From assembly GCA_902613795.1 (NCBI GenBank), contig CACMIP010000001.1, positions 416,087-480,086 of the forward strand: 64,000 nucleotides of DNA, given 5' to 3'. The notes beneath the pieces were generated by a model, which searched no databases, had not been told where the DNA came from, and saw nothing but the letters and a program-made list of their open reading frames with translations. Shown here piece after piece: positions 2,174 through 53,760 of the stretch (its first letter is position 1; each line of letters opens with the position of its first letter). The translations under genes and the position numbers were made by a program. The DNA is from an uncultured OCS116 cluster bacterium (GTDB lineage Bacteria > Pseudomonadota > Alphaproteobacteria > Rhizobiales > TMED25).

Positions 2174-2761
2174 ATCGTAATCTTAAATAAGATATATACA
2201 AAAACAGGAGACGACGGTACAACCGCCCTTGGCAATGGGGAGCGTATCGCGAAGAGTTCAAAAAGAGTGTCCGCATATGGGTCAGTGGATGAATTAAACT
2301 CCTTCATCGGATTGGCAAGATCTTTTATTGAATCAGATAAATTGCAGGAATTAGACAAAATACTTGCTACAATTCAAAATGATTTATTTGATCTTGGAGC
2401 AGACCTTTGCATTCCAGATAAAGATAAAAACGCTGATAGCCTCAAAATAATAAACAGCTATGTAAAAAACCTTGAAAGAGAAATTGATAAACTGAACAGC
2501 CAACTTGAGCCGCTGAGATCTTTTATTCTGCCCGGCGGCACAAAAGTCTCAGCGTATATTCATATAGCAAGAACAATCGCTAGACGTTGCGAAAGGGAAA
2601 TGATAGAACTAAGACAAATTGAGGAGGCTGAAATCAGTAAGGAAGCGGTACAATATATCAATAGACTATCCGACTTTCTATTTGTTGCAGCAAGATATGT
2701 GAATTTGAAATCAGATTTTGATGATATACTTTGGATACCAGGTAATAATTACGAGGAGTAA
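2174..2761 (+). CDS. Cob(I)yrinic acid a,c-diamide (ATP:corrinoid) adenosyltransferase, PduO type
   Basis: Transfers the adenosyl group of ATP to cob(I)alamin to make coenzyme B12. Seen are the P-loop-like N-terminal motif NKIYTKTGDDGTT (residues 5-17), YGSVDELNS, ILPGG, RTIARRCERE and the C-terminal RLSDFLFVAARY, all hallmarks of PduO-type enzymes; length about 195 aa is typical. The first ATG-type start (GTG at 2267) would remove the ATP-binding motif, and none exists upstream in frame. Start is therefore placed at ATC 2174 behind AGGGG; ATC 2180 is an alternative. The stop is 12 nt before etfB, in one apparent operon. Confidence 0.85.
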   Translation: MVILNKIYTKTGDDGTTALGNGERIAKSSKRVSAYGSVDELNSFIGLARSFIESDKLQELDKILATIQNDLFDLGADLCIPDKDKNADSLKIINSYVKNLEREIDKLNSQLEPLRSFILPGGTKVSAYIHIARTIARRCEREMIELRQIEEAEISKEAVQYINRLSDFLFVAARYVNLKSDFDDILWIPGNNYEE

Positions 2762-26875: not shown

Positions 26876-27418
26876 TTATTTTGGTGCCAACACCATGATG
26901 ATTTGCCGTCCTTCAAACTTTGGCTCAAGCTCAACTTTCGCAAACTCATCTGTATCATTTTTTATGCGATCAAAAAGTTTTACACCAAGCTCCGAATGCG
27001 ACATCTCTCTCCCGCGAAACATAAGCGATATCTTAACTTTATCTCCGAATTCTGTGAATTTTTTCATATTTTTTAACTTTACTTCATAGTCATGTGTGTC
27101 GATGTTGGGACGCATCTTGATCTCCTTAACACCGATTACCTTCTGCTTCTTTTTGGCTTCAGCAGCTTTCTTCTGGGCTTGATACTTAAACTTACCATAA
27201 TCCATTATTTTACATACTGGTAAGTCTGTATTTGGGGAAATTTCTACAAGGTCTAGTGAAAATTTTTCAGCCTCTTGCAAACCAATATCTAGAGTTACTT
27301 CACCATAATTTTCGCTGTTTGGTCCTATAAGTCTTATATTTCCTGCGTCTATCAAGTTATTTATTTTATGTGCAGGCTCAGTTTTTTTTCTTGCGAAATC
27401 TTCTGTTCTTCTGGCTAT
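26876..27418 (-). CDS. infC: Translation initiation factor IF-3 with ATA start codon
   Basis: IF3 keeps 30S subunits free and enforces start-codon and initiator-tRNA selection. N-domain EISPNTDLPVCKIMDYGKFKYQAQKKAAEAKKK leads through the linker into the C-domain VKEIKMRPNIDTHDYEVKLK and MFRGREMSH, all conserved. Only TTG at 27355 offers a usual start, which would cut the basic N-terminal block ARRTEDFARKK and the following HKIN region. In frame upstream, before the stop at 27434-27436, the sole plausible initiator is ATA at 27418 behind TGGAGA; this gives 180 aa, the E. coli length. Rare AUU starts on infC are established as autoregulatory. Confidence 0.93.
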   Translation of the reverse strand: MARRTEDFARKKTEPAHKINNLIDAGNIRLIGPNSENYGEVTLDIGLQEAEKFSLDLVEISPNTDLPVCKIMDYGKFKYQAQKKAAEAKKKQKVIGVKEIKMRPNIDTHDYEVKLKNMKKFTEFGDKVKISLMFRGREMSHSELGVKLFDRIKNDTDEFAKVELEPKFEGRQIIMVLAPK

Positions 27419-32016: not shown

Positions 32017-32961
32017 TTAACTTGAAAAACGCCCCAAATACTCAGGGATTATATTTTTTGCCGAAGATGCTTCAATATCATAATCTTCGAGCTTACCGAT
32101 CTCTTCATTTTTAGTTTGTAACAGGATATTATCGGTTTTTAGTGACTCGAGTTGATCAAATGTGATTGGTCTCTTTGGTAAAACTTGCATTGGCGTTATG
32201 AATATTTTTGATAGCGAAAATGGTATTGGGATTAAGACTCTTTTCTTGCTGATGGTAGCCAAAATTAACTCAATCACTTCCCTAAGAGAATAGATTTCTT
32301 TACCACCAATTTCATAAATATTTTTCCTATTCTTATCTTCTATGTGCGAAATTATTAGCCTAACTAAATCTAGCACATAAACTGGCTGGAATTTTGTATC
32401 TCCATTCCCAATTAACGGAAAAATTGGAAACAAGGACAGGATCCTCGCGAATTGATTAAAAAAATTATCATCATAACCAAAAACAACAGATGGTCTGATT
32501 ATTGTATAATTTGAGCTTTCGCGCTGAATAGAAGTCTCACCCATTGCCTTACTTCTTTGATATTTTGAACTTGAATTAATATCTGCACCTAAAGATGACA
32601 TATGTATGAATCTTCGCACATTATAGTCAACGCAAATCTTAGCAATAATCCCAGGTAACTCAGCGTGAATATATTGGAATTTTTGCCTTTTCCTCTCTTC
32701 CAAAATACCAACTAAATTTACGACATAGTCGGATCCTTGAATAAATTTATTTATTGAACGCTCATCATTCACATTAACTCTAGAAACCTCTATCTGTCCT
32801 GGAACACCAGAAACATAGAGATGATTTGCAGTTGCCGGATTTCTGGTCCCAATTTTTATTCTATAGCCATCTTTCGCGAGTTCTCGAACCAAATTACGGC
32901 CAATGAAGCCATTCCCACCCAAAATGGAAACAATTTTACTCTTATTTGATGGTATATTTAT
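32017..32961 (-). CDS. Complex I NDUFA9-like NAD(P)-binding protein, apparent ATA start
   Basis: Atypical SDR/epimerase related to mitochondrial complex I subunit NDUFA9; binds NAD(P)H, bacterial role unproved. KIVSILGGNGFIGRNLVRELA at the N-terminus is strand 1 and the GGxGFIG dinucleotide loop; IHMSSLGAD and YQRSKAMGE are the active-site equivalents. The first usual start (TTG 32922) lies within strand 1 and would destroy the fold. No ATG/GTG/TTG exists upstream in frame, but ATA at 32961 stands 7 nt after GAGGA and yields about 314 aa, the normal length. ATT at 32934 is a second candidate. Confidence 0.85.
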   Translation of the reverse strand: MNIPSNKSKIVSILGGNGFIGRNLVRELAKDGYRIKIGTRNPATANHLYVSGVPGQIEVSRVNVNDERSINKFIQGSDYVVNLVGILEERKRQKFQYIHAELPGIIAKICVDYNVRRFIHMSSLGADINSSSKYQRSKAMGETSIQRESSNYTIIRPSVVFGYDDNFFNQFARILSLFPIFPLIGNGDTKFQPVYVLDLVRLIISHIEDKNRKNIYEIGGKEIYSLREVIELILATISKKRVLIPIPFSLSKIFITPMQVLPKRPITFDQLESLKTDNILLQTKNEEIGKLEDYDIEASSAKNIIPEYLGRFSS

Positions 32962-50793: not shown

Positions 50794-50917
50794 CTTTTGC
50801 TTCGTTATTATTTACTTTCTTTTCTCTTTTCTTGATTGCTTGAGCTTTTCGTTTCTTCAAATTCTCTTTCAAAGCTGTTGCTAATTTTTGATTGTCTTTT
50901 TTTCTTAATTTTGCCAT
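50786..50917 (-). CDS. Small basic conserved protein upstream of murA
   Basis: A 43-aa, lysine/arginine-rich protein: MAKLRKKDNQKLATALKENL then KKRKAQAIKKREKK. The LxxALKxNLKKRKAQ core is one I associate with a tiny uncharacterised gene just upstream of murA in Alphaproteobacteria. The reading frame overlaps murA by 8 nt. Probably one amphipathic helix; nucleic-acid binding would be a guess. Below common length cut-offs and easily missed. Confidence 0.65.
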   Translation of the reverse strand: MAKLRKKDNQKLATALKENLKKRKAQAIKKREKKVNNNEAKDG

Positions 50918-50969
50918 ATTTCGAGTTGTATTTTGTTTGATTGATTAATATTCTACAAATGCATATGAA

Positions 50970-51044
50970 GCCGCAGTAGCTCAGTGGTAGAGCGCACCCT
51001 TGGTAAGGGTGAGGCCGAGTGTTCAATCCACTCCTGCGGCACCA
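50970..51044 (+). tRNA. tRNA-Thr (anticodon GGT)
   Basis: 75 nt with encoded CCA. Acceptor GCCGCAG/CTGCGGC, D-arm AGCTCAGTGGTAGAGC, anticodon arm CACCCTTGGTAAGGGTG giving GGT, T-arm GAGTGTTCAATCCACTC. Reads ACC and ACU. Confidence 0.96.
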
Positions 51045-51595: not shown

Positions 51596-52954
51596 ATGTT
51601 CACAAAAAATATAAATAATGCAATTGAAATTGAGCTTATAAGTAAAAATAAATTAAACAACTATATCAAAGAAAACCCAGATCAAAGAAGATGGATCGAG
51701 CAAAATACATTTACAGCTGATCCTGGTGAGCTGGTCATAGTCCCACAAGATAAAGATAATATAAAAAAAGTTTTACTAGGGAAAACAAATGAAAATGATG
51801 TTTACTCTAAATTTATTTGCAGTAATTTGCCAAAAAAATTACCCGGCAATAATTATTACATTTCAAATTTAGATCCTGACGATATTTTACCGTATATAAG
51901 CTGGGCTCTGGGTTGTTATAAATATGATAGTGCACCAATTTCCACTTCAAAACTTTTCCTTCCGGATAAGATCCATAATGAGGTAAGTATTCATGTAGAG
52001 AGTATCTTTTTCACAATGGATCTTATAAATCATCCAGCCAATAGACTTACAACAGAGGAGTTTGCAAAAATAATTGGAGAATATTTTACGAATAAAAACT
52101 GTAAAGTCACTGAAATAATCGGAGAAGATCTGCTGAAGCATAATTTCCCTCTGATATATGAGGTTGGAAAAGCAAGCTCGCATAAACCAAGGTTAGTTGA
52201 GATTCAGTGGGGGAAAAAAAATGATCCAAAAGTTACACTAGTTGGAAAAGGCATTACTTTTGATACAGGTGGCTTAGATATTAAACCTTCATCTGGTATG
52301 CTTCTAATGAAAAAAGATATGGGCGGGGCGGCGAATATATTGGGCCTCGCAAATATGATAATTGGAAATAAACTGAATTTAAACTTGAGAGTATTGATAC
52401 CAATTGCCGAGAACTCAATTTCAAGTAATTCTTTCAGGCCAGGCGATATTTTAAATTCAAGATCAGGTTTGACGGTTGAGATTGGAAACACTGATGCAGA
52501 GGGTAGATTGATATTAGCAGACTCTCTAACTCTCGCTGATGAAGGCTCCCCAGACTTAATCATCGATATGGCTACCCTGACAGGAGCCGCAAGAGTGGCG
52601 GTGGGACCGGAGATAGTTCCATTCTTTAGTACTAGTGAGGCAATTTCTAATATCCTAAAAAAAGTTTCACAAAATGTTCAAGATCCAGTTTGGGAACTTC
52701 CATTTTTTGCCCCATACGGAAAATGGCTCAATAATGAGATCTCAGACCTGAATAATTCACCAAATACACCGTTTGCAGGCTCTATTATCGCAGCAGAATT
52801 TTTGAAAAAATTTATTACCAACACAAATAATTATTTACATTTCGATGTTTATTCCTGGAATAATGGTACAAACAGGTATATCCCCAAAGGTGGAGCCGCA
52901 CAGGGCATCAGAGCTATTTACCAGCTGATAAAAGAGCTTTATGTTAATAAATAA
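51596..52954 (+). CDS. Leucyl aminopeptidase family (M17) metallopeptidase
   Basis: Dizinc cytosolic exopeptidase, 452 aa. C-terminal catalytic domain: LVGKGITFDTGGLDIKPSSGMLLMKKDMGGAA, then NTDAEGRLILADSLTLA (the M17 signature, about 302-318) and DMATLTGAARVAVG. The N-terminal domain is divergent. Pairs with the C40 peptidase gene immediately downstream, a common alphaproteobacterial couple. Confidence 0.92.
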   Translation: MFTKNINNAIEIELISKNKLNNYIKENPDQRRWIEQNTFTADPGELVIVPQDKDNIKKVLLGKTNENDVYSKFICSNLPKKLPGNNYYISNLDPDDILPYISWALGCYKYDSAPISTSKLFLPDKIHNEVSIHVESIFFTMDLINHPANRLTTEEFAKIIGEYFTNKNCKVTEIIGEDLLKHNFPLIYEVGKASSHKPRLVEIQWGKKNDPKVTLVGKGITFDTGGLDIKPSSGMLLMKKDMGGAANILGLANMIIGNKLNLNLRVLIPIAENSISSNSFRPGDILNSRSGLTVEIGNTDAEGRLILADSLTLADEGSPDLIIDMATLTGAARVAVGPEIVPFFSTSEAISNILKKVSQNVQDPVWELPFFAPYGKWLNNEISDLNNSPNTPFAGSIIAAEFLKKFITNTNNYLHFDVYSWNNGTNRYIPKGGAAQGIRAIYQLIKELYVNK

Positions 52955-52957
52955 TTT

Positions 52958-52964
52958 GAAGGTG
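52958..52964 (+). promoter_or_regulatory. Ribosome binding site for the ATT-initiated C40 peptidase gene
   Basis: GAAGGTG lies just after the aminopeptidase stop; its AAGG core ends 6 nt before ATT at 52969. It is the only Shine-Dalgarno-like sequence at the head of the C40 reading frame. Confidence 0.55.
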
Positions 52965-52968
52965 TAGC

Positions 52969-53760
52969 ATTCAACGCATTATTACAATTCCCAAAACGGA
53001 TATTAAAAAAGAGCCATCACATTCTTCTGAAACAATATCAGAAGCTCTTTACGGTGAATTCATAGGAATTGAAGATGAAGATGAAACGTGGATATATGGA
53101 AGATTATCAAATGATAACTATCGTGGTTATGTAGTAAAAACCGCAACTAAAGTTAAGGACCACAAATTAAATAATTCTTCTCTTAAAATCAGTGCGAATA
53201 GTTCCCACATATATTCCGCTCCAGACCCAAAATCACCTATTAAAAAAACTTTATTCAGAAATTCAAGAGTACTTTGTGACCTGTCCACTGTAAAAAATGA
53301 TTTCGTAAAAGTTAATTTTGAGGATGGGTTTATAAATATCAGTCATGTTCGGCGAAATCTCGAAAAAAAAACAGATTTTGTTGATGTAGCAAAAAGTTAT
53401 GTTGGGGCACCATACAAATGGGGTGGAAGGACTATTCTTGGAATAGATTGTTCTGGATTAGTTCAAACTTCACTCAATGCGGTTGGTCAGGAGTGCCCGC
53501 GAGATAGTATACAGCAATGTGAACAATTCTGTGGCACTACAGATATTGATCCAGAAATCAGTAATTTACGAAGGGGTGATATTATTTTTTGGGAAGGTCA
53601 TGTAGCGATATATGCGCAAACAAATAAAATCATTCATAGTAATATGACCAGTATGGATGTACGAATTGAAAATTTTACAAAGATTAGAGAAATATTAGAT
53701 AAGGAAGATAATCACATTAAGTCAGTCGCTAGAATGATACCTGAATTTATTTTTATGTAG
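52969..53760 (+). CDS. C40 (NlpC/P60) peptidase with SH3-like N-terminus and ATT start
   Basis: Cell-wall gamma-D-glutamyl-diamino-acid endopeptidase-type protein, about 263 aa. Two bacterial SH3-like segments (WIYGRLSNDNYRGYV; VKVNFEDGFINISHV) precede the NlpC/P60 domain with WGGRTILGIDCSGLVQTSL (catalytic Cys), RRGDIIFWEGHVAIY (catalytic His) and IIHSN. The frame is open from the TGA at 52957 to TAG 53758, yet has no in-frame ATG, GTG or TTG until close to its 3' end, well after the active-site motifs. ATT 52969 behind GAAGGTG is the best start; ATT 52978 and 52981 are alternatives. Its stop abuts the yejF stop (TAGCTA). Confidence 0.88.
   Translation: MQRIITIPKTDIKKEPSHSSETISEALYGEFIGIEDEDETWIYGRLSNDNYRGYVVKTATKVKDHKLNNSSLKISANSSHIYSAPDPKSPIKKTLFRNSRVLCDLSTVKNDFVKVNFEDGFINISHVRRNLEKKTDFVDVAKSYVGAPYKWGGRTILGIDCSGLVQTSLNAVGQECPRDSIQQCEQFCGTTDIDPEISNLRRGDIIFWEGHVAIYAQTNKIIHSNMTSMDVRIENFTKIREILDKEDNHIKSVARMIPEFIFM

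Follow-up and report, generated by a model that had tools for sequence, protein, structure and literature searches.

An AUU conserved across a genus is the probable start codon of a C40 peptidase gene in OCS116-type alphaproteobacteria

Where does translation begin in a peptidase gene whose reading frame offers no ordinary start codon ahead of its catalytic motifs? The question is raised by a frame in the window, the whole 64-kb (64,000-nt) stretch of DNA analyzed here, which comes from an alphaproteobacterial assembly of 1.32 Mb in 10 contigs. In agreement with the sequence-only reading, the frame at 52960-53760 is open for 266 codons between an upstream TGA (52957-52959) and a closing TAG (53758-53760), and its first ATG, GTG or TTG is an ATG at codon 229, past the DCSGL and GHVAIY motifs. 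A Shine-Dalgarno (SD) sequence, AGGTG (52960-52964), precedes an ATT (52969-52971) with a spacer of 4 nt. Read from this AUU, the coding sequence occupies 52969-53760 on the plus strand (263 codons plus TAG), and Pfam assigns an SH3_16 domain (PF18348) to residues 17-60 and an NLPC_P60 domain (PF00877) to residues 149-239 (E = 3.9e-19). The gene for an M17 (leucyl) aminopeptidase (51596-52954, plus strand) lies directly upstream, its stop 14 nt from the AUU, and the gene downstream is in convergent orientation. Elsewhere in the window, an ORF on the minus strand (50808-51026) is antisense to tRNA-Thr(ggt) (50970-51044) and is probably spurious.

We compared the locus with named relatives from OCS116-cluster or Rhodobiaceae assemblies. 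Of the genus's 12 genomes, 11 carry the C40 gene, and the one in which it was not found is about half complete. A canonical start was sought between the upstream in-frame stop and the ATT and found in none of the 11, and the next canonical codon after the ATT varies from codon 28 to 226, within or past the first SH3 domain. All 11 genes share GGTG-N4-ATT, at protein identities from 98% down to about 46-50%; the window's clade reads AAGGTGTAGC-ATT, and the two distant clades (46-51% identity) read TTGGTGCAAT-ATT or close to that. The distance from the M17 stop to the AUU is likewise held at 13-17 nt in all 11 members with the gene. By sequence, then, the gene behaves as an AUH-start gene (AUU, AUC or AUA), with no usable canonical codon and a fixed SD-AUH spacing in every member. 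Between the two options that the sequence-only reading had offered, AUU initiation and an error in the start region, the genus-wide motif supports the first. We put the probability that the AUU at 52969-52971 is the real start of the gene at about 0.88, judging from these comparisons.

Across the 11 start regions, every SD and ATT column is invariant; variation is seen in three of the four spacer columns and in the codons after the ATT. Since the alignment rows were anchored on the SD-ATT motif itself, independent support comes from a resampling test of chance. The exact in-frame motif GGTGNANNATT arises in 0.9-2e-4 of resampled intervals for each of three divergent sequences. A looser pattern, any SD plus any AUH, arises in 6-7%, so it is the exact conservation that carries the argument. 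The SD match of 5 nt is also a good one; just 27 of 149 ATG genes have a match that is as good or better. No special RNA structure is predicted at the start (z = 0.41). Nearly all assemblies of the genus lack the 16S gene, which would supply the anti-SD sequence, and in genome G010 it is cut off at a contig end.

Outside the genus the start is different. In the sister genus, the C40 gene has a slightly longer N terminus and an ATG start, and thus the AUU is not needed for function. This distribution suggests that the ATG was lost, and the AUU gained, in the genus.

The protein read from the AUU is complete. An AlphaFold2 model based on 27 sequences including outgroups has a mean pLDDT of 89.6, with the first strand formed by residues 2-5; an earlier model from 11 sequences without outgroups was poor (pLDDT 60). 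By sequence, the nearest proteins of solved structure are the Bacteroides dipeptidyl-peptidases VI 3pvq and 3npf. VIA-align superposes residues 1-262 of the model on residues 32-312 of 3pvq (Z = 26.3, r.m.s.d. = 2.8, 249 residues), and Foldseek concurs with the dipeptidyl-peptidase VI match (E = 2e-16). Among the 27 sequences, the catalytic Cys 161 is invariant and His 211 and His 223 are nearly so. The protein has the Cys-His-His set of NlpC/P60 enzymes, the N-terminal SH3 domains and the dipeptidyl-peptidase VI fold. Over the first 56 codons, dN/dS is about 0.1-0.3 in close pairs, indicating purifying selection. Together, the complete fold, the catalytic residues and the low dN/dS from the AUU onward indicate that initiation there would give a complete enzyme, which no canonical start would. 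The best explanation of the product is an intact cytosolic muropeptide peptidase of family C40, dipeptidyl-peptidase VI/YkfC-like. Its predicted role, following from the family, would be to cleave L-Ala-gamma-D-Glu/DAP peptides and so release L-Ala-D-Glu type dipeptides in murein recycling, beside the aminopeptidase.

Other starts for this gene are conceivable. Several ATT codons come after the first one in the window, and initiation could in principle occur slightly downstream, at the ATT at 52978, 52981 or 52987. We regard this as unlikely, as only the first ATT keeps one shared position in every clade and is properly spaced from GGTG, and in the model a downstream start would probably cost part of the first strand. 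Rather less likely is a start upstream in another frame (ATG 52941, TTG 52956 or GTG 52962) followed, close to the TAG at 52965, by a +1 shift into the C40 frame. By reading, a short peptide, MLINNLKV*, precedes the C40 frame and a single +1 step would join the two, but the elements of this route are not shared: the ATG at 52941 reads ATA in L004, the TTG is absent in L003 and L006, and GTG 52962 is followed by TAG, TAA or CAA TAT TAA depending on the clade, leaving no common slip site. This GTG is without an SD of its own and is better taken as the core of the SD itself. A longer N terminus in another frame plus a frameshift, which would have refuted the AUU start, was sought in the relatives, and the comparison did not refute it. 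A frameshift fusion of the C40 frame to the M17 gene or to the upstream mini-ORF is likewise rejected on the relatives' sequences.

A decaying pseudogene, or an internal fragment translated from a downstream canonical codon, is very improbable. One member, genome G007 (L006/L035), does have a frame break near codon 137, from assembly error or recent decay, which would fit a pseudogene. However, the conserved catalytic triad and the N-terminal dN/dS well below 1 argue against decay, and the scatter of downstream canonical codons (codons 28 to 226) argues against a fragment. Finally, the idea that the window's genome alone lost an ordinary start, through a recent mutation or a mistake in sequencing or assembly, is barely credible and was excluded as the second of the two offered options: the fragmented assembly of 10 contigs would favor it, but ten other genomes, from separate assemblies, share the missing canonical start together with the SD and ATT.

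The AUU of the C40 gene is accompanied by other AUH starts in the lineage. A non-canonical start for the peptidase had been proposed from the window's letters and is borne out; its conservation throughout the genus, and at least four further AUH genes including infC, had been missed. The infC gene (IF3; 26876-27418, minus strand; TIGR00168, E = 9e-67) serves as a positive control for a non-canonical start: it begins at an AUA (27416-27418) behind the SD GGAG, and the AUA is found in 12/12 genomes of the genus and 2/2 of the sister genus. Gene callers would place its start at an internal TTG (27355).

A PduO-type cob(I)yrinic acid a,c-diamide adenosyltransferase gene (2174-2761, plus strand; TIGR00636, E = 4e-62) starts at an AUC (2174-2176). 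Its start is never canonical in 11/11 genomes of the family (AUC in 9, AUU in 1, AUA in 1), and outgroups carry ATG or GTG exactly at this position. A third case is a gene for an NAD-dependent epimerase/SDR protein (NDUFA9-like; Pfam Epimerase; 32017-32961, minus strand) with an AUA start at 32959-32961 and the SD GAGGA; the AUA at 32953-32955 is an alternative. Across 11 loci of the genus the start is AUA, AUU or AUC, and in two of them (L135 and L137) in-frame stops stand directly before the AUU or AUC. The sister genus tentatively has AUU, and gene callers would begin the SDR gene at a TTG (32922). Outside the window, an MFS-like transporter gene starts with AUU; the copy of the window's own genome is near 94044-94196 of contig C3 (G000:C3), and another (L214) is at about 197060 of G010:C4. 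In 13/13 genomes from both genera it reads GAGGA or AAAGGA/T, 4-6 nt, and then AUU-CGN. Its paralogues use ATG.

How frequent such starts are was estimated from stretches of genome. A screen for all-canonical alignment columns (ATG 786, TTG 41, GTG 6) was too strict, as start positions drift, and two pairwise screens were used instead. These yielded 407 conserved genes on three contigs of G010, of which five have AUH starts, a lower bound near 1%. Most of the other flags from the pairwise screens trace to overlapping or leader sequence that is conserved, both genomes having an ATG. Four of the five AUH genes lie inside the 64-kb window, above its share of the 407 genes, by chance or as a cluster.

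What might a weak start do in the C40 gene? The 30S subunit and fMet-tRNA would reach the AUU through the SD 4 nt upstream and through ribosomes that terminate at the M17 stop; re-initiation by ribosomes finishing M17 is a plausible helper. IF3 would reject the AUU and so slow initiation, leaving little C40 peptidase relative to M17 from the same message, and the level of the peptidase would follow IF3, as with infC. Decoding of the AUU by fMet, coupling to M17 and low output are steps that we infer, and control by IF3, for which the argument is the codon itself and the analogy to infC, is somewhat favored. In Staphylococcus aureus, AUU and AUA starts yield about 10% of the output of AUG (PMC13009471), and the GTC start of sigR is repressed by IF3 (PMC5472188). 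An altered initiator tRNA was considered and rejected, as by reading the tRNA-Met(CAU) of G010 has C1 and A72 unpaired like normal initiators.

The AUH codons of the conserved genes swap among AUU, AUC and AUA without reverting to AUG, a pattern that suggests selection for weak initiation itself. The best explanation is that weak, IF3-sensitive starts hold expression low across the AUH genes, the regulation being presumed from the codons. IF3 of the genus is itself unusual, with Met at Arg 129 (E. coli numbering) in 12/12 genomes, Lys at the position of E. coli Arg 116 and, in most cases, Lys at 112. Arg 129 is retained in the sister genus and in the other members of the order. The sister genus nevertheless has AUH starts in infC and in the cobalamin adenosyltransferase, SDR and MFS genes, four of the five, and so the AUH habit cannot have arisen from R129M. 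Only the C40 gene gained its AUU in the R129M genus, a single coincidence, and the substitution is a lead only. It is accordingly a speculative and rather doubtful proposal that the family's C40, cobalamin adenosyltransferase, SDR, MFS and infC genes form an IF3-tuned translational regulon of selected AUH starts, tied in the window's genus to R129M.

The textbook gene with a rare, weak start codon is infC. The C40 gene resembles it in its AUH start, SD site and conservation, and the infC of the same window has its own AUA; however, the infC starts (AUU, AUA or AUC) are autoregulated, whereas the C40 product is not a translation factor and has no evident feedback logic. Both infC and pcnB of E. 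coli are classic AUU starts (cited in PMC1780047). Of the two, pcnB (Binns and Masters 2002, cited in PMC1780047 and PMC13009471) is closer to the present case as a non-infC enzyme gene with AUU and low expression, although protein and lineage are unrelated and the C40 gene is distinguished by its place just behind the M17 gene. In S. aureus, cvfC1 (AUU) and ccpN (AUA) combine a conserved AUH start with a strong SD (PMC13009471), as does the C40 gene; theirs were proven by ribosome profiling and reporters and belong to a regulator and a small protein, whereas the C40 peptidase is known from sequence. As a protein, it resembles the dipeptidyl-peptidase VI/YkfC-like enzymes (3pvq, 3npf and 3h41) in its SH3 and NlpC/P60 domains, with a Z of 26 and an alignment that begins at residue 1. 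Elsewhere in the order, orthologues from other families begin with ATG and have an extended N terminus, unlike the window's genus with its AUU.

To our knowledge, few natural bacterial genes besides infC are documented with a start other than AUG, GUG or UUG. On the sequence evidence, the C40 gene adds a case to the genes with conserved non-canonical starts, best known from infC. The window holds three such genes besides infC, and a fourth lies outside it, each backed by conservation in the genus or family. Gene callers limited to ATG, GTG and TTG would miss the C40 peptidase wholly and would shorten the other AUH genes. If the weakness of these starts is indeed selected, they would represent translational control in streamlined marine bacteria.
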